A DNA stretch of 64,000 nt from Betaproteobacteria bacterium UKL13-2 (lineage in GTDB: Bacteria > Pseudomonadota > Gammaproteobacteria > Burkholderiales > Usitatibacteraceae): NCBI GenBank assembly GCA_001602455.1, contig CP012157.1, positions 1,483,733 through 1,547,732 of the forward strand. The letters are read 5' to 3'. The notes under the pieces were generated by a model that worked only from the letters and a program-made list of their open reading frames with translations, was not told the DNA's origin and searched no databases. Position numbers and translations under genes: made by a program. This document shows, one piece after another, positions 2,026 to 61,985 of this stretch. The stretch's first letter is position 1, and each line of letters opens with the position of its first letter.

Positions 2026-2058
2026 CGCCGCGGGCGACCTATGAAATATTCAGGCTAG
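2026..2058. repeat. Family A element, right-end fragment
   Basis: The sequence CCTATGAAATATTCAGGCTAG is split here as a GCGGGCGAC block followed by the A terminus ending in CTAG (2055-2058). CTA at 2055-2057 is the TAG stop codon of rsgA on the - strand. Only the right end of the element is recognisable. Confidence 0.7.
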
Positions 2059-2945
2059 CGCTTCCACTCGGGATGCGACTCGCGCAATTCGCGTTGCTGT
2101 TCCACCAGCGCTTGATAAAACGTCAGGCGCTGGGGTTCGATTTTTCCTGCTTCCGTGGCCGTGATGATGGCGCAGTTCGGCTCGTCCATGTGCGCACAGT
2201 CGTTGAATTTGCAATCGCCGAAATAGGTTCGGAACTCCGGCATCGCATAAGCGATATCGTCATCTTCGAGATGAAACAGCCCAAATGACTGCATGCCGGG
2301 CGAATCAATAATGGCCGTGTCTTTGTCGAGCCAGTAGAGACGGGTATAGGTTGTGGTGTGTTTACCCGAATCGAGTGCCTCCGAGAACTCGCTTTCCTTG
2401 GCGACCTCACGCATCACGAGGTTATTCACGGTGCGCGATTTACCCATGCCGGATTCACCGACGAGCAGCGTCTTTTTGTTGGCGAGGATGGGCCGGAGCG
2501 GTTCGATGTCGAATTTGGCTGAAATCGGCAGTATTTGATACCCAATTCGCTCGAGGTAGCGGATCGATTCGCGTGCGGCTTCGAATTCGGGCAGATCCTT
2601 TTTATTGAGCATGATCGTCGCGGGGATACCCGCCGCATCGCAAGCCACCAAGCAGAGATTCAAGAATGTCGGCGAGAAGGTGGGGCGCGGCGCGACGATG
2701 ATGATGGCTTGATCCAAGTTTGCTGCGAGTGTTTTCTCGCGCCAAGAGTCTTTGCGAAACAGCACATTTCGGCGTGGCAGCACCTCGTCGATGCGCGCGG
2801 CCTTCGACCCGGTCATCGACACGATGACTTCATCGCCACAGGTCACGTCTTGTTTCTTGCCTTTTCGGGAGGCGACGCATTCGGTACGGTCTGGCAACAT
2901 CACCAGATATTCGCGACCGAAATCTCCAGTGACCAGAGCATTCAT
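2055..2945 (-). CDS. rsgA: Ribosome small-subunit-dependent GTPase RsgA
   Basis: 296 residues, the usual RsgA length. It is a circularly permuted GTPase: N-terminal OB-fold (about 1-65), then the G4 motif NKKD (114-117), then the P-loop GESGMGKS (163-170), DSPG (G3) later, and a C-terminal zinc knuckle of the form C-x(n)-C-x-H-x5-C (FNDCAHMDEPNCAI). RsgA helps the late maturation of the 30S subunit. It is the last gene of a tight - strand group; its ATG overlaps the TGA of the dehydratase gene by 4 bp. Its stop codon is formed by the terminal CTAG of a family A repeat. Confidence 0.95.
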   Translation of the reverse strand: MNALVTGDFGREYLVMLPDRTECVASRKGKKQDVTCGDEVIVSMTGSKAARIDEVLPRRNVLFRKDSWREKTLAANLDQAIIIVAPRPTFSPTFLNLCLVACDAAGIPATIMLNKKDLPEFEAARESIRYLERIGYQILPISAKFDIEPLRPILANKKTLLVGESGMGKSRTVNNLVMREVAKESEFSEALDSGKHTTTYTRLYWLDKDTAIIDSPGMQSFGLFHLEDDDIAYAMPEFRTYFGDCKFNDCAHMDEPNCAIITATEAGKIEPQRLTFYQALVEQQRELRESHPEWKR

Positions 2946-3265
2946 GGATGAATCAACTTCTCAAGTTTTGCCGCGCAGATAAAGTCGTTAAGTGTGATAC
3001 CGCCCGCATCATGGGTGGAATAGGCGACAACACAGCGGTTGTAATGGACACTCATGTCGGGGTGGTGGTCTTGTTCGTGCGACACCCAAGCACTGGCATT
3101 CACAAATGCCATCGTTTCGTAGTAGTTCTTGAACGGATATGTTTTACGAATCTCATTGCCGACGCGAGCCCAGCCTGCGAGTGTTTTCAATTGAAGCTCG
3201 ATTGTCTGGTCGTCTAAGGCGGTGGCTTGTCCACCCGCAGCGCAGTGCATATCGGCCAGTGTCAT
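2942..3265 (-). CDS. Pterin-4a-carbinolamine dehydratase
   Basis: 107 residues. The DCoH/PCD signature is present: SHEQDHHPDMSVHYN followed by VVAYSTHDAGGITLNDF, giving the EQDHHP, Y and T-H...G-T..D positions of the active site. The family dehydrates 4a-hydroxytetrahydropterin, recycling cofactor for aromatic amino-acid hydroxylases; the bacterial form is often called PhhB. No hydroxylase gene is in the window. Both ends overlap neighbours by a few bases (M48 peptidase upstream, rsgA downstream), so the three are likely co-translated. The same gene triplet order is common in betaproteobacteria. Confidence 0.93.
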   Translation of the reverse strand: MTLADMHCAAGGQATALDDQTIELQLKTLAGWARVGNEIRKTYPFKNYYETMAFVNASAWVSHEQDHHPDMSVHYNRCVVAYSTHDAGGITLNDFICAAKLEKLIHP

Positions 3266-4560
3266 GATGATGTTGCCAGTGATTTTAGGTGAGCGATCCG
3301 AATCGATGCCGGTGGGTGAGAATCATACACAGCCGAATGCAGCGGGTCGGGAGTCAGGGTAGAGGCATTATCCCGATAAAGCTTCACCAGTGCCGAGATG
3401 AGATCGCGGGAATCGGTTTGCTCAGCGGCATATGCGTCTGCTTCAAACTCGTGTTTACGCGACACGAGGCTCGACAATGGTGTCATCCAGAACGTGAACA
3501 CCGGCAGAACGGTAAAGAATAGCACCAGTGATACCGCCACCGGAGCCACGCCGGAGGCCATCGCCGTTGTCATTGCCGTTGTCATTGCCATTGGCATGCC
3601 AAGTCCTTCATAGAACCACGGCTTGTCGATCACCCAGCCCATCAGTGCCAACATCACAAACGAACTTGCGAACATCGCCGCCAAGCGTTTGACGATATGG
3701 CGGCGTTTGAAGTGCCCCAACTCATGTGCCAGCACGGCTTCGATTTCTTCAACGGATAGTCGCGCCATCAGGGTATCGAAGAACACGATTTTTTTGGAAC
3801 GCCCAAGCCCGGTAAAGTAGGCGTTGCCGTGGGAGGAGCGCTTGGAGCCGTCCATCACAAACAGGCCCTTTGCATGAAAGCCGCATTTATTCAATAACGC
3901 CTCAATTCTCGCCCTAAGGTTGTCATCGTCGAGCGGCTTGAATTGATTAAAAAGTGGCGCGATGAATGTCGGGTAAACCGTGATCATGAGCAGTGAAAAT
4001 CCCGTCCAGACCAGCCAGACGTAGAGCCACCAAAGCGTCCCCATTTTGGCCATCAACCAAAAGGTCGCCAGCAGTAAGGGGGTGCCAATGGCCGCCATAA
4101 TCGCCCAGCCTTTGAGCGCATCCGTGATGTAGGTGCGAACGGTTGTTTTGTTAAAGCCGTGTCTGGCTTCAACGCCAAAGGTGCGATAAAGATCGAAGGG
4201 CAATCCGAGTGCGCCGCTCACCACCGCAAGCGCCGCCACGAAGGCCAAGCCATTTGCATAGTCGCTCGCGAAGAGGAGATTAGTCTCGGCAAACAACCAA
4301 GCCAAGCCACCACCAATTGTGAGCCACAACAATAGACCGGTATTGAAGACCTCCTCAGCTAGGCCAAGGCCTTGTTTGTCGAGGGTATAGGCGGCAGCGC
4401 GCTGGTGGGCGTCCAACGGAATCACGTCGGCGAATTCAACGGGTACGGCAGTACGGTTGACGTTCACATGGCGCATGTGGCGAACACTGAGCCATAGGCT
4501 AAAGGCGAAGCTTAGCGCAGTGAAACCCAAAAAAATGGCAGTAAAGGCAGAAGACGTCAT
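3262..4560 (-). CDS. M48-family membrane metalloprotease (Ste24-like)
   Basis: 432 residues from the ATG at 4558-4560. A longer frame back to 4635 would overlap the start region of orn and adds non-conserved sequence, so the internal ATG is preferred. Several membrane segments lie in the first 200 residues; the zinc site HELGH is at about 279-283 and the third ligand lies in RKHEFEADAYA. This is the CAAX-type prenyl-protease fold, in bacteria a membrane protein-quality protease. A loop near residue 340 contains an in-frame 12-bp tandem repeat (AMTTAMTTAMAS). It is divergent from orn and first in the operon with the dehydratase and rsgA. Confidence 0.92.
   Translation of the reverse strand: MTSSAFTAIFLGFTALSFAFSLWLSVRHMRHVNVNRTAVPVEFADVIPLDAHQRAAAYTLDKQGLGLAEEVFNTGLLLWLTIGGGLAWLFAETNLLFASDYANGLAFVAALAVVSGALGLPFDLYRTFGVEARHGFNKTTVRTYITDALKGWAIMAAIGTPLLLATFWLMAKMGTLWWLYVWLVWTGFSLLMITVYPTFIAPLFNQFKPLDDDNLRARIEALLNKCGFHAKGLFVMDGSKRSSHGNAYFTGLGRSKKIVFFDTLMARLSVEEIEAVLAHELGHFKRRHIVKRLAAMFASSFVMLALMGWVIDKPWFYEGLGMPMAMTTAMTTAMASGVAPVAVSLVLFFTVLPVFTFWMTPLSSLVSRKHEFEADAYAAEQTDSRDLISALVKLYRDNASTLTPDPLHSAVYDSHPPASIRIAHLKSLATSS
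3563..3598. repeat. 12-bp tandem repeat, 3 units (in the M48 gene)
   Basis: GCCGTTGTCATT occurs exactly twice (3563-3574, 3575-3586), then once in degenerate form (3587-3598). It encodes repeated MTTA residues in the membrane protease, so it expands in frame. Confidence 0.85.
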
Positions 4561-4660
4561 TGGGGCAGACCAGTAAGAAAGTGCAAATTCGTGCGACGCC
4601 CGACCGGGGATGCGCCGGTTCGTGAGAAACTTCACGTCAATCCCATTATTTTACGTTCCC

Positions 4661-6520: not shown

Positions 6521-6624
6521 GCATTTGGCAAACATGGATCGGCGATGCTGTGCTCGGTCAGGCAAAAAATCGCTCGCCTTCGCATCGGTCTTCGAACGTG
6601 TTCCCCATCAAATGTTCAGACTAC
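6521..6624. repeat. Family A element, degenerate
   Basis: Contains the A core GGTCAGGCAAAAAATCGCTC, then a degenerate CGAACGTGTTCCCCATCAAA and the end TTCAGACTAC in place of TTCAGGCTAG. CTA at 6621-6623 is the TAG stop of the patatin gene. The remaining stretch from 6244 to 6520 shows no gene. Confidence 0.65.
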
Positions 6625-8888: not shown

Positions 8889-9098
8889 CTAACCTGAATG
8901 TTTCATAGGTCGCCCGATGGGCTTGCGTCGGAGTGACAAGCGGGTGTTGGAATGACAAGAGGGGGCTAGGGTTTGCCGCCAGATATACCGACTCTCCCGC
9001 GAAGACAGCCGCCGAAAATTCCCCTCGATTGGTTTACCAATCGCCCAGAGGCAACATGCCGCTAAGCTGTGGGCACTCCTATGAAATACTCAGGCTAG
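8889..9098. repeat. Family A element, full length (210 bp)
   Basis: The left end is CTAACCTGAATGTTTCATAG, the right end CCTATGAAATACTCAGGCTA then G. The two ends are inverted repeats. CTA at 9095-9097 is the TAG stop codon of the last pilus gene. The left end lies just upstream of the patatin start, so this copy fills the whole intergenic gap and may carry the patatin promoter. Confidence 0.8.
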
Positions 9099-14930: not shown

Positions 14931-14993
14931 CGACTGCCCATCCGGCTGATGTGCTCGCTGCTGTACCTCAAGCACGCCTTCACCCTATCCGAT
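14931..14993 (+). mobile_element. Relic of an IS5-type transposase
   Basis: The + strand frame from 14934 reads LPIRLMCSLLYLKHAFTLSD followed by E. The motif PIRLM-x-x-L-x-YLKHAF-x-LSDE is the start of the N-terminal domain (DUF772) of IS5-family transposases. The coding sense is lost immediately after it, so only about 20 codons remain. No terminal repeats are visible nearby. The surrounding 14890-15100 has no gene. Confidence 0.55.
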
Positions 14994-15190
14994 GAGGCAC
15001 TCCGCCAAAGCTTTCTGCCGATTTCGCACGTTTTCAACGGTTTTTGCTGTCAATTCAGAAATAGGCAAGTTTTGCCGATATCAGTACATCGCCCCGTTTG
15101 ACCGGGGCTCAATGGTCGGCGCTTATGTCTATCTTTCTGCGGGGGAAGCCGGGTGATGTGGGGTTCGCGCTATTCGGGTGGTCAATTCCA

Positions 15191-15529
15191 ATGCGTTGTA
15201 TTGCTGTCGGGCTGGGCACTATGTTGACAGCAATCACCTCCGCTGGCGGCGCGGCCCAGCCTGCTAAGGTCGGCGTATCCGCGACCATCCTGCCTTCGTG
15301 TCGAATACAGAGCACGCCTTCCGCAGAGCCGACCGCTAGGCGCGGCGGCGGAAGTACATCCCCGCTGAAAATCGACTCGGCTTGCAATGGTGCGACGCGA
15401 GTGAAGGCCTACGTCCTGCCGGTGATTGCCGCCGGTCGTATTGAACATCCAAGTATTGGCGCGGGGGCACCGGTTCACCGAAGCCGCAACACTGCCTCGC
15501 GTGTCGTGCATTACGTACTTGATTACTAG
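15191..15529 (+). CDS. Short exported protein with SCPU-like start, probably decayed
   Basis: 112 residues from ATG 15191 (MRCIAVGLGTMLTAITSAGG as signal peptide). The next residues AKVGVSATILPSCRIQSTPS closely match the mature start of the Csu pilins, but the rest lacks the second half of the domain. A frame back to 15098 adds residues with no family support. The TAG stop (15527-15529) is the end of a family A repeat, so the present C-terminus is probably a truncation caused by the insertion. It faces the RND permease gene. Confidence 0.5.
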   Translation: MRCIAVGLGTMLTAITSAGGAAQPAKVGVSATILPSCRIQSTPSAEPTARRGGGSTSPLKIDSACNGATRVKAYVLPVIAAGRIEHPSIGAGAPVHRSRNTASRVVHYVLDY

Positions 15530-15642
15530 CCTGAACATTTCATGGGGGCGCGTTCGAAAGCGGGTGAGTGGGTGAACGGGCGAGTGATTTAGAGGCAACC
15601 TCCTTGGACCCGGCGGGCGACCCATGAAATATTCATGGCTAG
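15526..15642. repeat. Family A element, compact copy (117 bp) with perfect CTAG ends
   Basis: The left end is CTAGCCTGAACATTTCATGG (15526-15545) and the right end is CCCATGAAATATTCATGGC then TAG (to 15642). The left CTAG gives TAG for the + strand gene ending at 15529. The right CTAG gives TAG for the - strand permease gene ending at 15639. Confidence 0.9.
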
Positions 15643-20430: not shown

Positions 20431-20571
20431 CTCTAGTAACCGACTGCGCGGGCGAGTTTGCGCGTTGCCGAGTGGGTCAAATTCGTCGCCGTACACTGGG
20501 TACGGGTTCCGCGTTTGCCAACCCCATCACCGCCAACTTCCCCCGCTCGTGACGGTTTTTAGAAGTTTCCC
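20431..20571. repeat. Family B element, copy 1
   Basis: Contains the B landmarks: ACTGCGCGGGCGA, then GCCGTACACTGGGTACG, then CGTTTGCCAACCCC, then CCGCTCGTGACGG, and the right terminus GGTTTTTAGAAGTTTCCC. The left terminus is degraded (CTCTAGTAACC). It lies between the divergent-looking pump operon and the 20.6-kb small frame; the whole gap from 20204 to 20595 has no gene. Confidence 0.75.
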
Positions 20572-20595
20572 GAAATGAACAATGCTTCGGTGCGA

Positions 20596-22573: not shown

Positions 22574-23650
22574 ATGACGATGAACACCATCGAGCAAGCC
22601 ATCGTTGACGGCTTGACGCGACACCCGCCAAGGTCTGGTGCCGCACTGCGCACCACCATTGCGCTGTCTGGCGGCGTGGATTCGATGGTGCTCCTGCATG
22701 GGATGTACCGCATCCAGCAAGGCGTTTCGAGCAAAAATGCCCCGAACTACCCGCCAATAGTTGAGTTTGATGCGCTGCACATCCATCATGGCCTAAGCCC
22801 GAATGCGGATCAATGGGCTGCGTTTTGTCAGCGCGAGTGTGATGCGCGCGAGGTTCCTCTGACGATCGTGCGGGTCGCCGTTGATCGATCCAACACCGAT
22901 GGGCAAGGCATTGAAGGTGCGGCGCGCGCGGCGCGTTATCAGGCGTTCCAGCGACACGCCGGTTCAAGGATCGTCGCGGCACAGCACGCTGACGACCAAG
23001 CGGAGACGGTGTTACATCAGATGCTGCGAGGCACTGGTATTGCGGGGCTTGCCGCGATGGGCGAGGTACGTCTCGTGTCACCGGGGCAAGTTTTGCTACG
23101 ACCGCTGCTGTCCATTTCGCGTGCTGAGATTGAAGCCTATGCGGCGTTACATGAGGTTGGTTGGATTCACGATGAATCGAACGACGACACGGCGATCACC
23201 CGTAACTTCATTCGGCACGAGGCATTGCCATTGCTGGCAACACGTTTTCCCCATGTGGCGGCGTCGCTGACCCGAATTGCGCGACACGCCGCCGAAAGCA
23301 CGGAAATGCTGGACGCATTGGCGAGGATCGATCTTGGCTGGGACGGCGTCGAGAGCACAGACGGAGCGGAGGCCGTCGAGGGGGCGGAGGCGGTAGAAGC
23401 GGCGGAGGAAACAGCGACGGCAACGGCGGCGGCGCTGGATGGATTACCGCTGAGCCGCCAGACCAATGCACTCTATCATTGGCTGAAGTGGCAGGGGGTG
23501 GCGACCCCCTCACGGTCTCAACTTGAGTCATGGGCGGCGCAGCTATTTCGCCCGTCGCCCAGCGATAAACCGCACCAGGCAGGCGGCCATGACTTTGTCA
23601 TTCGACGCCAGCGCGGAAAACTCACCTTACTGCGACGCAGCTCGCCTTAA
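22574..23650 (+). CDS. tilS: tRNA(Ile)-lysidine synthetase
   Basis: 358 residues. The PP-loop SGGVDS (32-37) marks the N-type ATP pyrophosphatase. Further motifs are HIHHGLSPNADQWAAFC, AQHADDQAETVLHQMLRGTG and the R-x-L/P-L-x3-R strand (LLRPLLSISRAEIEAYA). TilS makes lysidine at the wobble C of tRNA-Ile(CAU). The C-terminal part is short compared with E. coli TilS and includes an acidic Ala/Glu/Val repeat (about 252-286) not seen in the family. The TAA stop runs directly into family A repeat DNA. Confidence 0.93.
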   Translation: MTMNTIEQAIVDGLTRHPPRSGAALRTTIALSGGVDSMVLLHGMYRIQQGVSSKNAPNYPPIVEFDALHIHHGLSPNADQWAAFCQRECDAREVPLTIVRVAVDRSNTDGQGIEGAARAARYQAFQRHAGSRIVAAQHADDQAETVLHQMLRGTGIAGLAAMGEVRLVSPGQVLLRPLLSISRAEIEAYAALHEVGWIHDESNDDTAITRNFIRHEALPLLATRFPHVAASLTRIARHAAESTEMLDALARIDLGWDGVESTDGAEAVEGAEAVEAAEETATATAAALDGLPLSRQTNALYHWLKWQGVATPSRSQLESWAAQLFRPSPSDKPHQAGGHDFVIRRQRGKLTLLRRSSP

Positions 23651-23918
23651 TGTTTCATGGGTCGCCCAATGTGTCGAAGGAGATTGCCGCTGAAGAAGTG
23701 AACAACCAATTTGGTTCGTTCCACTTTTGCCGCAGATGCAAGCTGCACGTTCGCTCTCGGGCGCTTCGATGGTCACGTGTTTGACAAACACGCGCCTTCC
23801 TCCTGTACGTATTTGGCAAACACGGCCCGCGATGCTGTGGTCGGTCAGGCAAAAAATCGCTCGCCCGTTCACCTACTGACCCGCTCTCAAACGCGCCCCC
23901 ATGAAATGTTCAGGCGAG
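23643..23918. repeat. Family A element, full length (276 bp)
   Basis: Left end CTCGCCTTAATGTTTCATGG, right end CCATGAAATGTTCAGGCGA then G. The interior contains TATTTGGCAAACACGGCCCG and CGGTCAGGCAAAAAATCGCT, nearly identical to the copy at 44857. The left terminus overlaps the tilS stop codon. The rest of 23919-24056 is the ndk leader. Confidence 0.88.
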
Positions 23919-28942: not shown

Positions 28943-29076
28943 GGCTTAAGACCCGAGGGCTTGAGGTTCCACGCGCTGCGCCGGGGACGGGCACCGACAA
29001 GCAAAATGCGTTGAGATGTCCGCCCGACCGTGACTTTTGTACTGGGATGATGGATTTTTTAGAACCCGCATTTTCT

Positions 29077-29212
29077 GGGAACTTCTAAAGACCGTCGCGA
29101 GCGGGGCAAGTTGGCGGTGACAGGGTTGGCAAACGCGGGACACCTACCCGGTGTACGGCAACGAATTTGACCAATGTGGGAACGGACAAATTCGCCCGCG
29201 CAGTAGGTTGTT
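29077..29212. repeat. Family B element, copy 2
   Basis: Begins GGGAACTTCTAAAGACCGTC, runs in the inverse order to copy 1 (CGGGACACC...GTGTACGG), and ends near CGCGCAGTAGGTTG; the right terminus is degraded. Together with the C hairpin at 29272 it forms the same pair seen at 52874-53070. The preceding stretch 28943-29076 shows no gene. Confidence 0.7.
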
Positions 29213-29271
29213 ATGGATGCGGCAACTAAAACGTGCCGGATGAATAGACGTTCCATTTTTGCAAAACACGC

Positions 29272-29332
29272 CATTCCACGGGCGTTTCCAGACATAATTG
29301 TCTCGAAATGGCCGTCTTTATTAGAGTTTTTA
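29272..29332. repeat. Hairpin sequence C, copy 1
   Basis: CGGGCGTTTCC ... TCGAAATGGCCGTC followed by TTTATTAGAGTTTTTAA. The same imperfect hairpin is found at 45233 and 53009, each time next to a B element. The T-rich flank could terminate transcription. Confidence 0.55.
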
Positions 29333-29337
29333 ATTTA

Positions 29338-29459
29338 GGGAACTTCTAAAAACCTACTGCGCGGGCGAATCTGTCAGTTCCGGTGCTCGCCGTACACTGG
29401 GTACGTGTCCGCTCCTCACTGCCAACTTCACCCGCTCGTGACGGTTTTTAGAAGTTCCC
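29338..29459. repeat. Family B element, copy 3 (122 bp, perfect ends, TTTA duplication)
   Basis: GGGAACTTCTAAAAACC at the left and GGTTTTTAGAAGTTCCC at the right are perfect inverted repeats of 17 bp. It is flanked directly by TTTA on both sides (29334-29337 and 29460-29463). Inner landmarks CGTACACTGGGTACGTG and CCGCTCGTGACGG match copy 1. Confidence 0.88.
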
Positions 29460-29463
29460 TTTA

Positions 29464-29589
29464 GGAAGAAACCGTCGCGAGCGGGCGAAGTTCGTGGCGA
29501 CGGGTTTGGCAAACACGGGACACGTACCCAGTGTACGGCGAGCACCGCAGGCGCGAAATTCGCCCACGCAGCAGGTTTATAGAAGTGCC
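29464..29589. repeat. Family B element, copy 4
   Basis: Inverse orientation to copy 3. Starts GGAAGAAACCGTCGCGAGCG (left terminus shortened), contains ACGTACCCAGTGTACGG, and ends CAGGTTTATAGAAGTGCCC. It abuts copy 3. Confidence 0.8.
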
Positions 29590-29605
29590 CATTTTTAAGG
29601 TGGAA

Positions 29606-35960: not shown

Positions 35961-36005
35961 CTAAGCTGAACATTTAATGGGGCACGTTTGAACGCGAGAA
36001 TCGCC
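35961..36005. repeat. Family A element, left-end fragment
   Basis: CTAAGCTGAACATTTAATGG then GGCACGTTTGAACGCGAG corresponds to the A left end and its first internal block. The remainder of 35855-36228 has no gene. Confidence 0.5.
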
Positions 36006-36228: not shown

Positions 36229-37656
36229 ATGAAACCCACCATTGTCATCGTCGGCCGGCCCAATGTCGGCAAATCCATGTTGTTCAATCGACTCACCAAG
36301 TCGAGGGACGCGTTGGTCGCCGACTTGCCGGGGCTGACCCGCGATCGACACTACGGACACGGACGCGGTGCCTCGAAGCCTTTCCTCGTTGTCGATACCG
36401 GCGGCTTTGAGCCGAAAGTCACCGACGGCATTTTGCACGAGATGGCCAAACAGACCCTACAGGCGGTGTCAGAAGCCGATGCACTGCTGTTTGTGGTCGA
36501 CGGCCGTCAGGGCTTAACCCCGCAGGACAAAATCATCGCCGAGAAGCTGCGGCAGACCATGGGGCGCGAGAGCGGCCCGGCTGCAGGTAAGCGCGTGCCG
36601 GTGATGGTCGCGGTCAATAAGGCCGAAGGCATGGATGAGCAAATCGTCACGGCCGAATTTCATGAGCTGGGCCTCGGCGTGCCGGTGGCGATCTCGGCTG
36701 CTCACGGCGAGGGGGTACGACAGCTCGTCGAGGACATGCTGGCGAATTTTCCCGAGGTGGTGGACGAGCCAGAACCGCAACATCCGAAGGTTGCCATTAT
36801 CGGGCGTCCGAATGTCGGGAAGTCAACGCTGGTTAACAAGCTGCTGGGCGAAGAACGGGTCATCGCGTTTGACCAGCCCGGGACCACACGCGACTCGATC
36901 TTCATCCCACTGCACCGTAACGGCAAGGACTACACACTGATCGATACGGCAGGCATAAGACGCCGTGGCAAGGTCTTCGAGGCGGTCGAAAAGTTTTCCG
37001 TAATCAAGACCTTACAAGCAATTGCTGACTGCCATGTGGTGGTGTTGGTGCTCGACGCACGGCAGGAAGTGTCTGAGCAAGACGCGCATATTGCCGGATT
37101 TATCGTCGAGTCCGGGCGGGCGCTCGTCGTTGCAATCAATAAATGGGACAACCTAGATGACTACACGCGCGATCGCGTCAAGACCGACTTCGACCGGAAG
37201 CTTCATTTTTTGAGCTTTGCCCATATGCACACCATCTCGGCTAAGGATGGCATGGGCTTGAATCCATTGTTTAGATCCGTCGACGACGCCTTTGCGGCGG
37301 CAATGGCAAAGCTGTCGACGCCGAAGTTGACACGTGCGCTGATCGCCGCAACGGCGGCACATCAGCCGCCGATGAGCGGTCAGCATCGGCCCAAAATGCG
37401 CTATGCCCATCAGGGCGGACACAACCCGCCGCTCGTGATTGTTCACGGAAGTGGCTTGGACGGCGTGCACGAGAGCTACATTCGTTATCTCGAAGGTCGG
37501 TTCATGGAGACCTTCAAGCTGCGTGGCACACCGCTCAGGGTAGAGCTGAAAGCGGGTGCTAATCCCTACCGTGACAAAAAACCCCCGGCACTCACCAAGG
37601 GCCAGGAAGACAAGCGCCGCCGCGGACGCATTCGCATGAAGCGCAAGTATGGCTAG
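36229..37656 (+). CDS. der: Double-GTPase ribosome assembly factor Der (EngA)
   Basis: 475 residues from ATG 36229 ([18 protein letters not shown]); a longer frame from 36163 lacks family support. Two GTPase domains: first P-loop GRPNVGKS with DTGG, second [17 protein letters not shown] with DTAG, both with NKxD-type motifs, and a C-terminal KH-like domain ending in basic residues ([18 protein letters not shown]). Essential for 50S maturation. Its TAG stop is the left CTAG of a family A element. Confidence 0.97.
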
Positions 37657-37728
37657 ACTGAACGTTTCATCGGGGGCGCGTTCGAAAGCGGGTTAGTGGG
37701 CGAGCGGGGCGTGAAAGATTCAGGCTAG
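37653..37728. repeat. Family A element, shortest complete copy (76 bp)
   Basis: CTAGACTGAACGTTTCATCG at the left (its TAG is the der stop, 37654-37656) and GTGAAAGATTCAGGCTAG at the right. Inside only GGGGGCGCGTTCGAAAGCGG and a short GTGGGCGAGCGG remain. It shows that both termini persist with a deleted centre. Confidence 0.85.
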
Positions 37729-42358: not shown

Positions 42359-44853
<2,495 letters not shown>

Positions 44854-44856
44854 CGC

Positions 44857-45230
44857 CTCGCCCAAATATTTCATGGGCCGCCCGCAGCGTCGAAGGACGT
44901 TGCCGCTGGGCGATTAGACGGCAAACTGGACGGCACCGTGTTTGCCATCGCAGTTGATAAAAACGCGCCTTCCTCCCGTACGTATTTGGCAAACGCGGCT
45001 CGCGCTGCTGTGGTCGGTCAGGCAAAAAATCGCTCACCCGTTCACCTACTGACCCGCTTTCGAACGCGCCCCCATAAAATGGGAACTTCTATAAACCTGC
45101 TGCGTGGGCGAATTTCGCGCCTGCGGTGCTCGCCGTACACTGGGTACGTGTCCCGTGTTTGCCAAACCCGTCGGCACGAACTTCGCCCGCTCGCGACGGT
45201 TTCGAGAAGTTCCCAAATGTTCAGGGCTAG
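44857..45230. repeat. Family A element interrupted by a B element
   Basis: Left end CTCGCCCAAATATTTCATGG just after purA, the A body as in the copy at 23643, then CCATAAAAT at 45072-45080. After the B element the A terminus resumes with AAATGTTCAGGGCTAG (45215-45230). Without the insert and its duplicated AAAT it would be about 236 bp. Confidence 0.9.
45081..45214. repeat. Family B element, copy 5 (134 bp, inside an A element)
   Basis: GGGAACTTCTATAAACC at the left, GGTTTCGAGAAGTTCCC at the right; flanked by AAAT on both sides (45077-45080 and 45215-45218). It is the clearest evidence that B elements move and are younger than this A copy. Confidence 0.9.
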
Positions 45231-45232
45231 AA

Positions 45233-45305
45233 TTGACGGGCGTTTTCAGGCGCTTTGGCTTGTAAACGCCCGCCGATAGGGGAGCTACTCTTTTTAGAAG
45301 TTCCC
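45233..45305. repeat. Hairpin sequence C, copy 2, and B-terminus fragment
   Basis: CGGGCGTTT (45237-45245) pairs with AAACGCCCG (45264-45272). It is followed by TTTTTAGAAGTTCCC at 45291-45305, a lone B terminus. The same C hairpin is next to B at 29272 and 53009. Confidence 0.6.
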
Positions 45306-45368
45306 TTTTTTGTGCACTTGCCAGTGATAGGACTACGATAAAGCGGCAGACACAACCCAGATAAGATC

Positions 45369-45440
45369 GTTGCCGCTATTGTTGCCGCTATTGTTGCCGC
45401 TATTGTTGCCGCTATTGTTGCTGCTATTGTTGCCGCTATC
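45369..45440. repeat. 12-bp tandem array, 6 units
   Basis: GTTGCCGCTATT repeated six times (one unit has GTTGCTGC, the last ends ATC). It is intergenic, between the A/B/C repeats and the low-GC genes. No spacers, so not a CRISPR. Confidence 0.93.
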
Positions 45441-45529
45441 GCGCCAGTATTTCGTGCGGAAAGACAAGATTTGTGTTGATCAATAGTGTTAAACCACGAT
45501 CAAATTTTTGGTGGGCGCTCGTGTCGCCT

Positions 45530-46108
45530 CTAAATATTTTTCAGGTTGTCTTCAATGATGGAGTGAATTTTAATGAACTCTTCAGTTTGACTATGAATTA
45601 ATTTTGGTTCTGCCATTTTTGTAATTCTGGCAAGAAATAAAGAAGTCTCTAAGGGGGTATAAATTCCATACTCCTGTTCATCGTGAAAAAAAGTGGCGAT
45701 TTCCATTAATCTCTCTGGTTCTTCTTCATCGTCGATATCATCAAATTCCAAATTGAAGATTGTTGATTCATCTTTGTTAGGCAACTCACCTGCCACAGTC
45801 AAGACGTAAGGAGTATCCTTTAGAATCAGATTTTTCTCAGAAAGCACAGCTTGAGCAGTGCCGAAAATATTGGCTATGATTTCCCCTTCGACTAAAACAG
45901 CCTCATCTTCATCTTCTCCAGCAGCTTGCCAACTGTAAATCTCTATTGTTGCATCTACTGGCTCCACTAGAGCATATTTCTGCCCCTCTACTGAAATTAG
46001 AGTTTCATTTAGAATACGACATTCTAATCTCCTGTTAAAATGGTCGGTTACAGTAACAACACTTTCGGAGTCGTGATCGCTGTCTTCGGAAATTTTAGAT
46101 GAAATCAT
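45530..46108 (-). CDS. DUF3727-like protein, cyanobacterial in style
   Basis: 192 residues, low GC compared with the neighbours. The features VVTVTDHFNRRLECRI, VEGQKYALVEPVDATIEIYS, AQAVLSEKNLILKDTPYVLT, VAGELPNKDESTIFNLEFD, ATFFHDEQEYGIYTPLETSL and LARITKMAEPKLI match, in order, the DUF3727 proteins of cyanobacteria as I remember them. Acidic segments (EDEDEA, DDIDDEEEPER) are also typical. No signal peptide or membrane helix. Function unknown. Horizontal transfer is likely but not shown. The gene ends in the region with the 12-bp array, and a small membrane protein gene lies upstream. Confidence 0.75.
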   Translation of the reverse strand: MISSKISEDSDHDSESVVTVTDHFNRRLECRILNETLISVEGQKYALVEPVDATIEIYSWQAAGEDEDEAVLVEGEIIANIFGTAQAVLSEKNLILKDTPYVLTVAGELPNKDESTIFNLEFDDIDDEEEPERLMEIATFFHDEQEYGIYTPLETSLFLARITKMAEPKLIHSQTEEFIKIHSIIEDNLKNI

Positions 46109-46216
46109 AGTTTTATTGTGAAATGTGGAAATAACTTAAATACTAAAAGATAGCCGCCTATTTGATGTGGAGCTGGGGTTGTGCTATAAAATTAGGCTTA
46201 CCCCTTCGATGTTCGC

Positions 46217-46531
46217 TTAAGGCATATCGAAAGCAAATCTTAACATAAATAAGCACCATGAATAAATAAGTGGAATGCAAGCAAACATAATGCTCATCTT
46301 GTTAAAGCCGTAAAACTTCATTATCAATGAGGCAGCTAAAGAAACTAGCACTGCAATTGAGAGGATAATATAGGATATTTCTAAATGCTCATATAATCTC
46401 CCTGTTGGGGTATTTGGGTTGTCGTATGTCAGAACGATAAAAAACATAGCTCCAAAATAAGTCACAACCCCAGATAGGGTAAGCAACGTTAAGCCAATAT
46501 AGGGAAGTAATTTGTCAATAGTGCTGATCAT
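46217..46531 (-). CDS. Small membrane protein of unknown family
   Basis: 104 residues, four hydrophobic segments: YIGLTLLTLSGVVTYFGAMF, a short polar loop, then YIILSIAVLVSLAASLIM and IMFACIPLIYSWCLFML. Low GC, like the DUF3727-like gene 108 bp downstream, and on the same strand. No family recognised. It starts about 90 bp from the family A copy at 46623. The space between the two genes (46109-46216) shows nothing. Confidence 0.6.
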   Translation of the reverse strand: MISTIDKLLPYIGLTLLTLSGVVTYFGAMFFIVLTYDNPNTPTGRLYEHLEISYIILSIAVLVSLAASLIMKFYGFNKMSIMFACIPLIYSWCLFMLRFAFDMP

Positions 46532-46622
46532 GTAATGCTTTCGTGATAAGTAGGGTAATTTATGGGGGCGCTTATATTGCTGAGGGGCGGGTTGACGTTG
46601 ATTGACGGCGATTGTAGCCGTT

Positions 46623-46900
46623 CTAGCCGGAATATTTTATGGGGGCGGGTTCGAAAGCGGCTGAGTGAGTGGACGGGTGAGCGACTTTTCGCCTGACCGA
46701 CCACAGCATAGCTGGCCGTGTTTGGCAAATGCGTAAGGGGGAAGGCGCGTGTTTGTCAAACTCGGATCCATCGAAGCGCCCGCGAGCGAACGTGCAGCCC
46801 GCATCCACCGCAAAAGAGGAACGAGCCAAATCGGTTAACCACTCATTCAGAGGCAACCTCCTTAGACGCAGCAGGCGACCCGTGAAATATTCACGGCTAG
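46623..46900. repeat. Family A element, full length (278 bp)
   Basis: CTAGCCGGAATATTTTATGG at the left; CCGTGAAATATTCACGGCTA then G at the right. Inside it has CGCCTGACCGACCACAGCAT and CGCCCGCGAGCGAACGTGCA. The final CTA (46897-46899) is the TAG stop of the sensor kinase gene. With the copy at 44857 it brackets the low-GC genes. Confidence 0.9.
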
Positions 46901-49326
46901 TTACTGCGGCTGCGGTGCAAAACTTGGCTCGACGATTCACCTGCTGGCGAAAACAGTAAATCAGCAACCGCGTTCAAGATTGAGTCCTTCACAAATGGTT
47001 TTAGCACCACGCCGTCATAGGCGTTGGCGTCGCTAATCGGTGATTCACTTGCCAGCAAGACTGTTGGCGGACGGCGGCCTTCACCAATGTGCGACCTTAG
47101 CGTGTTCACGATATCGGCCCCCTCGGCAAATCCGACGCCCTTGGGGTCGACCACAATCACATCAAATTGCTCTTGAACCATGGCTTCAAAGGCTTCTTGC
47201 GCACTGCCAACCAGTACCGTGCGGTAGTCTTTTCGTTTCAGTGTCGCCGCGACAAAACTAATCTTGTTGCGGCTCGCATCGATGATCAGGACGGCTGCTT
47301 TCTTCTGTTCACGTAACGAGTGGCGTGTGATTAGTGTCGATGTCATTTCTGCATCGTCTTGTGCGCCGATCACCGCAGTGATCGCCTCACTGAGCTGCTG
47401 CGGGAGTGCTGGCTGTCGTAGATACGCGCTGATGCCATTTTCGCGGCAGCTCACCGCATCGCCTGGTTTACCTTCTGTGGCGAGCATGATGACGCTGGTT
47501 TGGCGCAAGGCCGGATGATGCTTAATGCGGAATGCCAGCAAAAAGCCGTCTTGTGTCGGCAAGCGATTGGAGGTAATGACGAGGGGCAGCGTGCTGCCGT
47601 CTTGGGCAAACCGGGAAAGGAGCTGTATCGCGACATCCGCGTTGTCGGCTTCCCTCGGCATCATGCGCCAGCGCTTTGTTAGCGCCGCGAGCGCACGTCG
47701 CTCCGCCGTGCTTTCACTGACAATCAGCACCGGCAAACCCGTCAGCGCGATGTAGTAAGGCCGCTGGTGGTGCAGCTTGGTGTTATCGAACGGAAATGTC
47801 GCCGTAAATTGATAACTCACACCGAGCTTGCGCTGTTGTACTTTCAAGTGGTCTGCCGACTTTTGATCTCCTACGAGGGCGCGCACGATTTGGCGTGACA
47901 AGGCGAGTTGCATGGATGCAGACGGTGGAAGTGCGGTGTCCTTCACGGTGCCGGACCGCACCATCTGCTCGACGGAAAACGTCAAGTGGGTGTGGCCATT
48001 GGCGCTGTATTGCGATGAGACCGTCAATACAATTTCGGTCGCACCTTCAGACATCACGGCGTCAGCAGTCGGCGCGGCTGCAATGGCGCAGTCGAGAAGA
48101 TGACGTAGCGCCTGCATCAGCCTCGCTCCGTCGCCCGTTAACCGCTCAGGCACATCTTGTTCGACACGGACACGGAGCTGTGCGCGACGTTGCTGGGCGC
48201 ATCCGGCTATTCCCGCGATCATCATCGCCACATTTTCACGCAGCTTGAATGGTGCGATTTCAAGCGTAAGCGACGTGTGGTGTGACGTGTGGTGTGACGT
48301 GTGGTGTGACGTGTTGTCTGGCATGCGATCAACAGGTGAAAATTGGAGTAAACCTGCGACCGCATCAAATGCGCTCAATGAGGCGGTTTCAACACGCCGA
48401 AATTGTTCGAGCAGTTGGCTGGGTAAGTCGAGTTGCTCTGCGCGGTAAAGCGCTTGGCTAGCCGATTCACGCGCGAGGGTGAGTTCATGCGTAATCTTGT
48501 CGATCAGAAACATTTGGTTTGTGATCATCCCTGCCGAGGGCGTCTCGCTCGGCGCATCTGTGCGATGTGCCGTCAGATGGAACAAATGTAGCCGCCCTGC
48601 AACGCCGTTGTTACCGTCTACCGCGATGGATGTCTGCGTAACGGCTTCGCCAGTGGCGAGCAAGAACTTCAGCTCATCACGTTGCTTGCTGCCTTTGGCG
48701 GTATCAAGCGAGCGGTAAAGGGGACCAACCTGTTTGACAGTTGCCAGAGAAGCGGCCGCGAATAGTGTCGCGCAACTGGTGCCGATCAAGGATTGAGGTG
48801 CCGCGCGAATCGCGAATAAGCGGCAGAAAGTCGCGTTGAGTATTTCGATACGGCCATCCGTATTTTCGACAACACAGGGCACAGCCACATTCTCGACCAA
48901 GTCAAGCAAGTACGTGCCCTGAACGGTTGCGGCGGTTTCATTGGCTTTTTCAATCGACAGATCGCGTAGCCACAAGGCCACGCTGCTCGGCTTGCTCAGC
49001 GCCGCCCGAACTGCGCCGATCTTCACTTCTGTGGGCAAGACCGCTTGGTTGCCGTTGGCAAACGCAATAATGTCAAGCTCTAATCGCTGCGTATTGGTGA
49101 TGCCATCGGCAACACGTTTGAAGACCTTCGCAAATCGGGCGCGGTCATGCATCGCAACGACCGAGGCGAACTCCCAATCACCGAGCACATCAAGCGCCTC
49201 TGGCGAGCGGATGGTATCGCCGACAAGTGCCCGCGCCGCGTTCGTTGCGGAGATTACTTTGCCGTCGAGGTTTAGCTCGAAGAGCGGTTCATCCAACGCA
49301 TTGATGAGGCCAGCCGGATCTTTCAC
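46897..49326 (-). CDS. Degenerate hybrid sensor kinase (PAS - kinase-like - two receiver domains)
   Basis: 809 residues from GTG 49326, whose GTGA overlaps the pgi stop; an ATG frame back to 49425 lies inside pgi and is rejected. A first PAS-like domain (DEPLFELNLDGKVISATNAA), a second (VENTDGRIEILNATFCRLFA), a His segment KITHELTLARE and a kinase-like part with a SHHTSHHTSHHTS insertion follow. The nucleotide site looks eroded: no clear N box or DxGxG motif. Two receiver-like domains end the protein; in the second, DPKGVG stands in place of D-x-x-M-P but retains the acceptor-like Asp, while the first has SNRLPTQDG. It may be a signal-binding pseudo-kinase. Confidence 0.8.
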   Translation of the reverse strand: MKDPAGLINALDEPLFELNLDGKVISATNAARALVGDTIRSPEALDVLGDWEFASVVAMHDRARFAKVFKRVADGITNTQRLELDIIAFANGNQAVLPTEVKIGAVRAALSKPSSVALWLRDLSIEKANETAATVQGTYLLDLVENVAVPCVVENTDGRIEILNATFCRLFAIRAAPQSLIGTSCATLFAAASLATVKQVGPLYRSLDTAKGSKQRDELKFLLATGEAVTQTSIAVDGNNGVAGRLHLFHLTAHRTDAPSETPSAGMITNQMFLIDKITHELTLARESASQALYRAEQLDLPSQLLEQFRRVETASLSAFDAVAGLLQFSPVDRMPDNTSHHTSHHTSHHTSLTLEIAPFKLRENVAMMIAGIAGCAQQRRAQLRVRVEQDVPERLTGDGARLMQALRHLLDCAIAAAPTADAVMSEGATEIVLTVSSQYSANGHTHLTFSVEQMVRSGTVKDTALPPSASMQLALSRQIVRALVGDQKSADHLKVQQRKLGVSYQFTATFPFDNTKLHHQRPYYIALTGLPVLIVSESTAERRALAALTKRWRMMPREADNADVAIQLLSRFAQDGSTLPLVITSNRLPTQDGFLLAFRIKHHPALRQTSVIMLATEGKPGDAVSCRENGISAYLRQPALPQQLSEAITAVIGAQDDAEMTSTLITRHSLREQKKAAVLIIDASRNKISFVAATLKRKDYRTVLVGSAQEAFEAMVQEQFDVIVVDPKGVGFAEGADIVNTLRSHIGEGRRPPTVLLASESPISDANAYDGVVLKPFVKDSILNAVADLLFSPAGESSSQVLHRSRSN
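48272..48319. repeat. 12-bp tandem array, 4 units (in the sensor kinase gene)
   Basis: GACGTGTGGTGT three times exactly (48272, 48284, 48296), with a fourth altered unit. Encodes SHHT repeats on the - strand, so it lengthens in frame. Confidence 0.9.
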
Positions 49327-52873: not shown

Positions 52874-52990
52874 CGCGGGGCAAGTTGGCGGTGATGGGGT
52901 TGGAAAACGCGGGACAAGTACCCCGTGAACGGCGACCAATTTGACAAACTCGGGAACGGACAGATTCGCCCGTGCAGTAGGTGATTAGAA
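52874..52990. repeat. Family B element, copy 6
   Basis: GCGCGGGGCAAGTTGGCGG, GGGACAAGTACCCCGTGAAC and CGCCCGTGCAGTAGG mirror the block order of copy 2 at 29077. Both ends have lost the perfect terminal repeats. It begins directly after the ATPase stop. Confidence 0.65.
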
Positions 52991-53008
52991 TCTACCGAAA
53001 ACAAAACT

Positions 53009-53070
53009 CGCCTATCGGCGGGTGTTTCCACGGTATTTCGCTCCGAAACGCCCGTCTTTAATAGGGTTTT
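53009..53070. repeat. Hairpin sequence C, copy 3
   Basis: CGGGTGTTTC ... GAAACGCCCG, then TCTTTAATAGGGTTTTTG. It follows the B element as at 29272. It could end the ATPase transcript on the + strand. Confidence 0.55.
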
Positions 53071-57792: not shown

Positions 57793-57862
57793 ATTGGTTT
57801 GCCAATCGCCCAGCGGCAACGCGCTTCGAAGCAGCGGGCGAGCAGTGAACTATTCAGGCTCG
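57793..57862. repeat. Family A element, right-end fragment
   Basis: TTGGTTTGCCAATCGCCCAG, CGGCAACGCGCTTCGAAGCA, then GTGAACTATTCAGGCTCGG; matches the second half of the copy at 8889. Confidence 0.6.
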
Positions 57863-57863
57863 G

Positions 57864-58792: not shown

Positions 58793-58880
58793 GTTCAGAT
58801 TCGCTCGATTGAAAAAGTGCTAACGCCAGCATGGCAGCAGCGTCTAAGATAAAAGCCCCATAAAAGCCCCAAGCAGTAGT

Positions 58881-58934
58881 CTAGCCTAAATATCTCATGG
58901 GTCGCCCACTCCCCGCTGTCGAACGGTTGGACGC
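58881..58934. repeat. Family A element, left-end fragment
   Basis: CTAGCCTAAATATCTCATGG then GTCGCCCACTCCCCGCTGTC; the right half is missing. It lies between the lexA stop and tdk. Confidence 0.6.
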
Positions 58935-58943
58935 ATGACGACG

Positions 58944-59561: not shown

Positions 59562-59563
59562 AA

Positions 59564-59579
59564 CTGAGTTTTTATACAG
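59564..59579. promoter_or_regulatory. LexA (SOS) box between lexA and the PhoD-like gene
   Basis: On the - strand CTGTATAAAAACTCAG, matching CTGT-N8-ACAG with one change (TCAG for ACAG). It ends 3 bp before the lexA ATG side, so LexA would control its own gene. Whether it also affects the divergent phosphatase gene is unknown. Confidence 0.75.
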
Positions 59580-59723
59580 TTTTGCGCGACTTTGCAAGCA
59601 ATTTTCTTACGGCGCACACATTTTGGTGCCACGGTACGGGTTTTTTTAGCGATGTTGAGAACGGGTTGTCATTTTCTTGGGCTATGCTCGCCGCTCATTC
59701 GACTCGCTTACTGGAGCCCCTAT

Positions 59724-61136
59724 ATGCCTTGGCTGCGCAATTTATTTTTTCGCCAATCACTCTTGGCCGCTGCATTTTCCATGATGCTGATGACCTCATC
59801 GCTTGCGGCAGAACTCACGGCGGGACCAATGGTGGGCGCAACCGCGATGCGTCAGGTCAAGATTTGGCTCCAAGCGAATGGCCCCGGCAAGGCGCAGATC
59901 GAGTATTGGGAAGTCGCGCCGGCGAATACCGCCACGATGGCGATGAACATCTCGCCGAAGCGAGCGATGTCACACACGGTGGCACTTGAGGCTGACACTG
60001 ACTTCGTCGCGCAGTTTAATGTAGGCTTGATCGAGCCGGGTCGAACCTATGAATACCGCGTCCTGATTGACAACAAAGAACAAAAAATTCCACAGCCGCT
60101 GCGCTTCAAGTCGCAATCATTTTGGCAATGGCATACCGATGCCCCGGATTGGAAGATGCTCTTGGGTAGTTGTTCATTTACCAATGACCCGACATACGAT
60201 CGACCGGGGCGCCCGTACGGGGGCGCGCCTTCCGAGCGGCGCATTTACGACAGCATGGCGGCGCAAAAGCCCGACCTGACCGTCTGGAATGGCGATTACC
60301 TCTACTACCGTGAAGCGGATGAAGATAGCGAACTCGGTATGCGATATCGGTGGCGCTACGATCGAGGGCAGGCCGATCACCAGTCGCTTCTGCGCACGGG
60401 CTCCCATGTGGCGCTTTGGGATGATCATGACTATGGCCCCAACGACAGCAACAGCAGTTTTCGCTTAAAGGGCGAAGCGCTCGCCTTGTTCAAGCGGTAT
60501 TGGGCAAATCCAAGTTTTGGGTTGCCGGAGCTGCCAGGCGCATTTACGACTTACCGTTTCAACGACGCCGAGCTGTTTATGTTGGATGACCGCTACTACC
60601 GCGATAGCGACAAGCTACAAGCGGCAGATAAATCGAAGATTGGCGCGGCTCAACTCAGGTGGCTCAAAAATGCGCTGCTAATGTCGGTCTCACCGATTAA
60701 GTTGATTGTGACTGGTGGTCAAGTGACCGATGACACAAGTGCATACGAGGGCTGGCACAATTTCCCGGAAGAGCGTGCCGACTTCTTAAAGTTTCTGGCC
60801 GACCACAAGCTAAATGGTGTCATATTGCTCACCGGTGACCGGCACTTTACGCAGGTGCTGAAGACCGAGCGACAGGGCCTCTACCCGCTCTATGAGTTGA
60901 CCTGCTCACCAACGCTTTCGGGGCCCGCGTCGGGGCTTGTGGCCGAGGGCCTGAACAAGAAAATGGTGCCGGGTACTTTTGTGCGGACACGAAATTTCTG
61001 TTCGCTTGATTTTAGCGGGCCGAAGAATGATCGTCGGATCACGCTGCGCAGTTTTGCGGTGAACGGTGACAAAAACTGGGAACGAGAAATTCGCCTCACT
61101 GAACTGCAAGTGCCGAGTGCGGCGAAAGTTCAGTGA
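59724..61136 (+). CDS. PhoD-like alkaline phosphatase
   Basis: 470 residues from ATG 59724 (MPWLRNLFFRQSLLAAAFSM), a Sec-type signal peptide ending near SLAAEL; a frame from 59592 adds sequence upstream of it. The N-terminal part is an Ig-like domain, then the metallophosphatase: GSCSFTNDP, NGDYLYYREADED, WDDHDYGPNDS, and GDRHFTQVL, with the metal-binding Asp, Asn and His residues of PhoD. It is exported and probably hydrolyses phosphodiesters or monoesters. Divergent from lexA. Confidence 0.9.
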   Translation: MPWLRNLFFRQSLLAAAFSMMLMTSSLAAELTAGPMVGATAMRQVKIWLQANGPGKAQIEYWEVAPANTATMAMNISPKRAMSHTVALEADTDFVAQFNVGLIEPGRTYEYRVLIDNKEQKIPQPLRFKSQSFWQWHTDAPDWKMLLGSCSFTNDPTYDRPGRPYGGAPSERRIYDSMAAQKPDLTVWNGDYLYYREADEDSELGMRYRWRYDRGQADHQSLLRTGSHVALWDDHDYGPNDSNSSFRLKGEALALFKRYWANPSFGLPELPGAFTTYRFNDAELFMLDDRYYRDSDKLQAADKSKIGAAQLRWLKNALLMSVSPIKLIVTGGQVTDDTSAYEGWHNFPEERADFLKFLADHKLNGVILLTGDRHFTQVLKTERQGLYPLYELTCSPTLSGPASGLVAEGLNKKMVPGTFVRTRNFCSLDFSGPKNDRRITLRSFAVNGDKNWEREIRLTELQVPSAAKVQ

Positions 61137-61265
61137 GGCGGCTTTCTATCTTTTGTGACAACACCACCGCCACGCCACAGCAGGCCATCAAACATTCACG
61201 GGCGAGACTTTGCAAAGGTATGTTCGCGCAGTCTCTTACGACTAAAAGGTTGGCACGATAGGCAT

Positions 61266-61679
61266 TTAGTTAGTGATATCTTTTGCATAATCAAGGACTG
61301 CATCGCGGGGAATGGAGCAAAACCGCTTGATCGCAAGGACAATTGCCTTTGGGGTGATGCCGCCAGCAATTGGTATATCCCAACTGAATTGGAGATTGTC
61401 ATTTTCGATGCTAGTTGCTCTCACGATCGCATACTTTTCATTGATGTTGTTTACGGCTTGAAGTCGTGATAACTCTGAAGCCTCTGGCTTGAAGCCGAAC
61501 TGCGTCAACAAGCGAATTTTGTTTTTCCGTTTTGCGTCCACCACTAAAAAGCAGGTTATATCTTCTCTCACCTTAACGTCGCCATCACTGTCATAAGACG
61601 TATCCATATACGCTGCGTCCAGAATGGACTTGAGGAGTTCATTCGTTAAATTCTCTGGTGTGATGAGATCTGGTGTCAT
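61266..61679 (-). CDS. YbjN-like protein
   Basis: 137 residues, lower GC than the flanking genes. It has SYDSDGDVKVREDITCFLVV, LSRLQAVNNINEKYAIVRAT and the end TPKAIVLAIKRFCSIPRDAV. The N-N-I-N core and the final helix match the YbjN family (PF10722), which has a chaperone-like fold similar to type III secretion chaperones. No membrane segment. Function unknown. Next to a family A element; 61137-61265 is empty. Confidence 0.65.
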   Translation of the reverse strand: MTPDLITPENLTNELLKSILDAAYMDTSYDSDGDVKVREDITCFLVVDAKRKNKIRLLTQFGFKPEASELSRLQAVNNINEKYAIVRATSIENDNLQFSWDIPIAGGITPKAIVLAIKRFCSIPRDAVLDYAKDITN

Positions 61680-61770
61680 GTTTACTTTTCTCCTGTGTTG
61701 TTAAACGTTGAACTGCGTCAATTGTTGCTGCAACTTTTTGTCGCCGAGCGCCTCTCTTGGCATTTCCAAG

Positions 61771-61985
61771 TCAGCCTGAACATTTCATTGGGGCGCGTTC
61801 GAAAGCGGGGCGGGTGGGTGAGGGAGGTTGAGGGGGAGGCGGGCGATTTTTCGCGAAGAGTATAACGCGGATTTGGTAAAGCCGGTCGCAAATGTGGTGG
61901 TAAATGTGGTGGTAAGTACAGTACCGTCCCATCGCCCGGAGGTGGTGCTTCGCTGCCAGGGGCGAGCGGTGTGATTTCAGGCGAG
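61771..61985. repeat. Family A element, full length but degenerate (215 bp)
   Basis: CAGCCTGAACATTTCATTGG at the left, GGCGCGTTCGAAAGCGGGGC inside, TTTCAGGCGAG at the right. The TCA of the right end (61977-61979) is the TGA stop of the GMC oxidoreductase gene. It contains a 12-bp tandem duplication, AAATGTGGTGGT (61890-61901 and 61902-61913). Confidence 0.75.

Follow-up and report, generated by a model that had tools for sequence, protein, structure and literature searches.

A YTAR-inserting MITE family of a betaproteobacterial genus, frequently found at stop codons and probably mobilised in trans by IS1380

The elements described here, named family A, are short inverted repeats found in a 64,000-nt stretch (the window; contig CP012157.1, positions 1,483,733 to 1,547,732) of the genome of Betaproteobacteria bacterium UKL13-2 (G000, one contig of 3.387 Mb). 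They resemble most closely the insertion sequences (ISs) of the IS1380 family, with which they have in common ends of the form CCyG.ATATTTCAy and a 4-bp YTAR duplication; they differ from them in having neither a transposase gene nor interior similarity to extant ISs of the genus. IS1380 elements are over-represented between genes of the same orientation (PMC9208149). Their eukaryotic counterpart piggyBac has TTAA as target, and a piggyBac study in which IS1380 is the outgroup gives TTAA with rare TTAG or CTAA duplications (PMC10813416). MITEPsy1 of Pseudomonas syringae, a 100-nt miniature inverted-repeat transposable element (MITE) with 18-nt ends, also duplicates CTAG, or YTAA, but its ends begin with GGAAGG or GTATCC instead of CCTGAA, and an association with stop codons is not seen in the excerpts of its description (PMC3189936). 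The enterobacterial RU repeats and QMITE2 of Coxiella are likewise small mobile repeats that alter the carboxyl termini of gene products (PMC2759123, PMC5896051); they are read in frame as protein, whereas the flank of family A is a stop and the protein often remains unchanged. Within the available excerpts of these and other open-access papers (among them PMC3281130 and PMC4133298) no description was found of MITEs that occupy stop codons by way of a duplicated CTAG. Elements of this kind are known; that literature was not found to describe family A, its connection with IS1380 in this genus or the excess measured at stops.

Family A is very probably a non-autonomous MITE family of this betaproteobacterial genus, moved probably in trans by an IS1380 transposase and with insertions at stop codons that survive as harmless. 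Its end, CCTGAAYATTTCATGGG, has 15 matches in the window at up to three mismatches (the limit for all end counts unless otherwise stated), compared with 0.28 expected, and 15 was reached in none of 100 shuffles. Allowing four mismatches yields 22 matches, of which those added at 37708 and 57842 belong to family A copies and five (25355, 37751, 39598, 61184 and 63666) were excluded as possible chance matches. There are 12 copies or fragments, in agreement with an earlier reading of the letters alone (the sequence-only reading) that had counted at least 12 with inverted ends. Eleven have extents defined by BLAST of long copies against the window, and the twelfth, an end fragment with flank CTAA (35961..35981, + strand; match listed at 35965), is an end match only. 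When a copy split by another repeat is set aside, paired copies span the proposed range, from 76 bp (37653-37728) to 278 bp (23641-23918 and 46623-46900). The core CGGTCAGGCAAAAAATCGCT, held to be conserved, is present but in only four places, and is a feature of the longer copies. These have two unlike arms, left (…GGGGGCGCGTTCGAAAGCGGG…ATTTTTTGCC) and right (…GGGTCGCCCG…). The 71 paired copies collected measure 50 to ~400 bp, have inverted 17-bp ends and no transposase gene, and show no conspicuously conserved frame; their arm orientation is unclear in 11 copies of G000 and four of congeners. The MITE-like nature proposed from the letters suits elements that are short, lack a transposase gene, have inverted ends and a 4-bp duplication and occur in many copies. 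A protein-coding interior was considered and dropped: the reverse frame in the phase of the flanking TAG is long (phase 0, median 51 codons in 31 long copies), but no longer than that of reverse phase 1, which is open to a similar extent.

The target was defined from 209 ends of three carriers, G000 and its congeners G007 and G009, a non-random sample in which many ends were fetched for being exact. Positions -4 to -1 are C171/T29, T168, A165 and G173/A28, that is YTAR; the four adjoining bases are CTAG in 108 of the 209 and YTAR in 137. Bases beyond -4 have little bias, at most G75 at -5. Filled and empty sites show that insertion occurs at YTAR and duplicates these 4 bp, which are CTAG in most cases, as had been supposed for CTAG. 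The filled site of G007 (L321) reads …AAACCCTAG, element, CTAGTGCTTGCG… (CCCTAG, element, CTAGTGC), the empty site of G009 (L320) reads …AAACCCTAGTGCTTGCG… (also given as ..CCCTAGTGC), and the two flank alignments overlap by exactly 4 bases, the CTAG duplication. A gene of G009 and G007 that ends in …GGCTTCTAG (L021/L083) carries the element; G000 (L182) has …GGCTTCTAGCCGCG… without it. In many copies one flank is CTCG, with C in place of A at the second base beyond the end, and the other is CTAG, for example at window 23641-23644, L184 4818 and L188 222. Position -2 in the 209 ends holds 25 C, 11 G and 8 T, unlike positions inside the ends, and direct CTCG/CTCG pairs number zero among the 71 paired copies.

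The coincidence with stop codons was counted over 864 kb of G000, made up of the window and 40 stretches of 20 kb each; these stretches lie on a grid whose last ten are found only in the first 1.1 Mb. A simple codon-usage script, whose gene starts are unreliable, predicted 675 genes in this sample. The 101 family A ends correspond to 78 insertions, and in 27 of these a predicted gene stop lies exactly at the element edge (offset 0 in 25, 1 base in 2). The flank is CTAG in 23 of the 27, CTAA in three and GTAG in one, and 27 of the 675 predicted genes thereby end exactly on an element. The 871 CTAGs elsewhere in the sample comprise 39 stops, 535 sites inside genes and 297 that are intergenic or at edges. 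Stops are found at 27/78 insertions, and of the remaining CTAGs outside coding sequence 39/336 are stops (odds ratio 4.0, p 3.9e-6); with CTAG-type stops only (23) the odds ratio is 3.2 (p 3.0e-4). Ends of family B, a second repeat family described further below, coincide with stops in 0/72 cases (three more are 2 bases off) versus 27/101 for family A (p 1.4e-7). The enrichment at gene ends that the window had suggested is therefore present in the genome sample. Four of the 78 insertions lie inside a predicted gene, and only 8 of 75 fall in divergent gaps, although these make up 33.7 of the 149 kb of gap. CTAG is rare, with 920 occurrences where base composition predicts 3312 and trinucleotide frequencies predict 1149.

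In the window, six genes proposed to end on an element edge do have their TAG within a CTAG at the edge or 1 base from it. The fragment with one end at 2025..2058 (- strand; end match 2038-2054, BLAST extent) has CTAG 2055-2058 as the stop of rsgA (- strand; RsgA_GTPase). The copy with both ends at 8889..9098 (unstranded) is flanked by CTAA and CTAG, the right CTAG being the stop (9095) of what had been taken for the last pilin gene, whose product matches Pfam SCPU (PF05229) instead. A 117-bp deletion copy between convergent open reading frames (ORFs) at 15526..15642 (+ strand) has stops in both CTAG flanks, that of the RND permease (15639) and that of an ORF (15529) which was described as SCPU-like; the latter is without Pfam match and is also uncalled by the codon-usage gene finder. 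The left CTAG of the 76-bp copy (37653..37728, + strand) is the stop of der (37656), and the gene for a response-regulator/PAS protein stops (46897) in the right CTAG of a 278-bp full-length copy (46623..46900, + strand). The partial left-arm copy at 6521..6623 (- strand; end match, BLAST extent) stands, as claimed, at the stop of the patatin/Omp85-domain gene (6621), in this case as GTAG. A diverged copy (61771..61985, + strand; flanks TCAG/CGAG) indeed supplies the TGA of the GMC oxidoreductase gene (61977). The second 278-bp full-length copy (23641..23918, - strand; flanks CTCG/CGAG) lies at the 3' end of tilS, which has TCG at the expected place of TAG, reads 2 codons into the copy and stops at a TAA inside it (23650). 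The other members are a copy split by a family B element at about 45081-45214 (44857..45230, - strand; flanks CTCG and CTAG), a right-arm fragment (57793..57862, + strand; flank CTCG; BLAST extent) and an end fragment (58881..58908, - strand; flank CTAG; end match, BLAST extent).

Homologs among the fetched loci were available for 10 of the 27 genes with a stop at an element edge, and for five of them (der, rsgA, patatin, the SCPU gene and the L187 gene) the nearest relatives lack the element and yet have their stop at that codon too. With the L021/L083 gene and a G007 gene, there are seven such cases. The expectation that element-free orthologs carry CTAG at the stop stood for three of the seven; the other four keep the stop position in element-free relatives. 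The stop of der, GGCTAG followed by the element in G000, is GGCTAG in element-free G009, GGTTAG in G007 and AGCTAG in G001, G002 and G008; G012 ends two codons later, and G003, G004, G006 and G011 have TGA or TAA. The rsgA orthologs of G009, G007 and G003 stop with TAG at the same codon, that of G011 one codon later. Patatin orthologs have TAA (G007, G009), TGA (G003) or TAG (G008) at the same codon, and element-free relatives of the L187 gene (434 aa) have TAG. The insertion at the RND permease gene is common to G009, there as a longer element. The homolog of the L184 gene (L184_5903) stops at a position that differs by 2 codons, and this gene was excluded from the clean cases; the orthologs of the 46897 gene have carboxyl termini that are not alignable, so that their stop positions are not comparable.

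The transposase partner is probably an IS1380 element, as judged from its ends and target, from its presence alongside family A and from the deletion derivatives that it has left in a congener. Congeners G006 and G009 have IS1380 elements (identified via PF13701) with ends CCTGCATATTTCACCGT or CCCGCATATTTCACCGT adjoining CTAA or CTAG. The first 13 bases of the G009 IS end CCTGAATATTTCACCAT are identical to family A; the match is 13/17 with G006 and 12/17 with the other G009 IS end. The ends of the G009 IS occur as TAGCCCGCATATTTCACCGT or TAACCC… (4 exact) and TAGCCTGAATATTTCACCAT (5), and 7 of these 9 are located within ~515 bases of a contig end, as expected of an unassembled multi-copy IS, which this element apparently is. 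Two ~278-bp internal-deletion derivatives, which join the left 140-165 and the right ~140 bases of the G009 IS, lie between CTAG repeats (L406 73-350; L407 438-716). They are a separate MITE family, and IS1380 gives MITEs of this size here. Elsewhere in the order, 17 IS1380-type loci were covered by a search that required 12/17 matching end bases and 3/4 equal flanking bases, not YTAR. Exact 4-bp YTAR duplications are present in seven (TTAA, CTAA, CTAG, TTAG, CTAG, TTAA, CTAG), whose ends match family A at up to 14/17, with the particularities that the transposase of L376 has stops and that the ends of L381 are poorly similar to family A. Two of these transposases match NCBIfam IS1380 with E 1e-124 and 1e-126. 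G000 itself keeps an IS1380 relic whose end is TTAG followed by CCCGAATATTTCACCAT. Since family A shares only its ends with the G009 IS, its true parent may be a close cousin of that IS. Two further loci are recorded here: a 51-bp element of G000 (L412 535-585) with one family A end, one IS1380-type end and flanks TTAG/TTAT, and a family A copy of G009 (L162 1-546) whose left CTAG adjoins a decayed IS1380 transposase fragment.

According to the mechanism proposed, an IS1380-family transposase would act in trans and insert family A by cut-and-paste into YTAR, mostly CTAG, with duplication of the 4-bp target. Because YTAR contains TAA or TAG in a fixed phase, the duplication would rebuild the stop, and a gene entering from the left would keep its Y-TAR stop in place. 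Since both CTAG and TTAA are palindromes, a convergent gene entering from the right would keep its stop too. Such insertions would cost the protein nothing and survive, while those in CTAGs of genes or promoters would be purged. We infer that the chemistry is cut-and-paste and that the excess at stops arises from survival and not from targeting; the few insertions inside genes and in divergent gaps fit survival.

A number of results weigh against this reading. An IS1380 element with exactly the 17-bp ends of family A was not found in the genomes and loci searched, and the interior of family A has no match beyond the ends with extant ISs of the genus. The G006 piece is assigned to NCBIfam IS1380 at E 1e-49 with a score of 169, below the whole-protein cut-off of 180. 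Equal 4-base flanks that are not YTAR also arose in the IS1380 locus search (L387, GCGT), a repeat taken as chance. Flank pairs of the 71 paired copies are direct repeats in 25 and inverted repeats in 25 (CTAG/CTAG in 22 of each), leaving telling cases of 2 versus 2, and alone are no proof of direct duplication. The orthologs of the SCPU gene in G007 and G009 stop at the same codon, but with TGA. Truncations were also found: the GMC gene, outside the 27, lacks ~15 codons relative to its G007 and G009 orthologs, and the L191 and L211 genes, both among the 27, have homologs that run on for 99 and 157 codons (the L211 homolog is 30% identical), so that these two genes may be truncated as well. 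They raise the alternative that stops are by-products of insertions which cut genes short, to which the end CTAGCCTGA could contribute with stop codons in two of its three frames. As a general account it has a very slim chance, given that the stop position is unchanged in element-free relatives for 5 of the 10 G000 genes that have a homolog and for the two congener genes.

The sequence-only reading had attributed the recurring CTAG to an IS5-type element. ISPsy2 is a member of the IS5 family. YTAR is an IS5 target (PMC10359306), and MITEPsy1, the duplications of which are CTAG or YTAA, possibly derives from ISPsy2 (PMC3189936). Spread of family A by an IS5-group transposase nonetheless appears most improbable. 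None of 42 transposase loci read in G000, G007 and G009 (30 of 56 listed PF01609 matches and 12 of 35 PF13701 matches; 35 distinct places) carries family A ends as its own, and family A ends (CCTGAAYATTTCAT) match IS1380 elements at up to 14/17. Bracketing by family A ends is absent from 38 of the 42 loci. Of the four bracketed ones, three (two places) are interpreted as ISs lying within a family A copy, because other copies of the same ISs are without family A ends, and the fourth is a weak match. The supposed IS5 relic near 14931 is a 50-aa ORF (14949-15098) without Pfam match, a result that speaks neither for nor against that identity. G000 is rich in ISs, with 51 PF01609 matches; they include five 312-aa transposase copies of equal score, four of them within 18 kb (134-152 kb), and three copies of a 475-aa transposase type with 5-bp YTCAW duplications.

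That the transposase prefers YTAR at translation stops or transcript ends, guided by terminator structure, supercoiling or a wider context, would explain the excess by targeting and not by survival. An odds ratio of 3-4 over other non-coding CTAGs leaves room for such an active stop preference, and family A ends are also found at CTAG bordering another, palindromic, repeat (L105, L184, L193). Such targeting is considered rather unlikely, however, as there is little bias outside -4 to -1 in the 209 ends and the scarcity of insertions in divergent gaps is that predicted by purging from promoters. That the elements are retained for a role at gene ends, in transcription termination or as some other RNA signal, is less probable still. 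Left arms are able to form a hairpin before a T-run, terminator-like signals are present on one strand in 19 of 41 copies versus 7-13 in shuffles, and folding of 30 of the 41 copies gave greater stability than for shuffles (median z about -3), but inverted ends raise folding scores without any function. The opposite strand is at shuffle level (14/41 versus 9-15), left arms (9), right arms (8) and arms of unassigned type (10) adjoin stops in similar numbers (arm type is missing for 29 of the 101 ends), a terminator scan of 44800-47000 gave none inside the two copies located there, and Rfam at gathering scores has zero matches in the window. The two-way terminator suggested earlier is accordingly not supported; the left arm may contribute to termination in one direction.

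Family A is dispersed through the genome of UKL13-2: G000 holds 345 ends, versus 3 matches of a reversed control pattern. At up to two mismatches there are 265 ends in G000, 69 in G009 and 38 in G007, 0-4 in ten other congeners and, beyond the genus, 0-3 (control 0-1) in 48 genomes. Expansion of the family is thus confined, within the set of genomes searched, to three species of a single genus. A 17-mer scan of a genome-contig collection gave at least 74 matches. Among the matches listed, 24 are from two Rhodocyclaceae metagenome-assembled genomes, and most others look like chance single 17-mers. A 321-bp family A query had no match in plasmid records, and four viral contigs have the 17-mer, with zero pairs flanked by YTAR. 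Two ends face each other on a Desulfobulbaceae contig (L051), whose match to family A is only 21 bp long. In G000, two head-to-tail family A copies (L007 1258-1738) have one CCAG in common at their junction, as if one copy had inserted in the flank of the other. Family B, with ends GGGAACTTCTA and AT-rich flanks, has 72 ends in the 864 kb, one element being nested in family A; its places in the window are about 29072-29595, 20432-20575, 52875-53056 and 45081-45214. A palindromic repeat (about ATTGRCGGGCGTTTTCAGG plus complement) is found 3' of a gene in several species, at 45231-45290 in the window and intergenic in G001, G002, G005 and G008.

Family A is a case of a mobile-element target that coincides with a codon, such that insertion is costless to the gene, and this coincidence is now quantified. 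Together with the apparently multi-copy IS1380 of the congener it offers a system for asking whether survival or targeting places elements at stops. It is a speculative and on balance unlikely idea that YTAR transposons of this class have the stop codon as preferred landing site, the stop being rebuilt for each neighbouring gene; were it true, the family could colonise gene ends genome-wide and move apart convergent genes that formerly had a single CTAG in common. For annotation, a TAG stop followed by CCTGAA may be the edge of a transposon.

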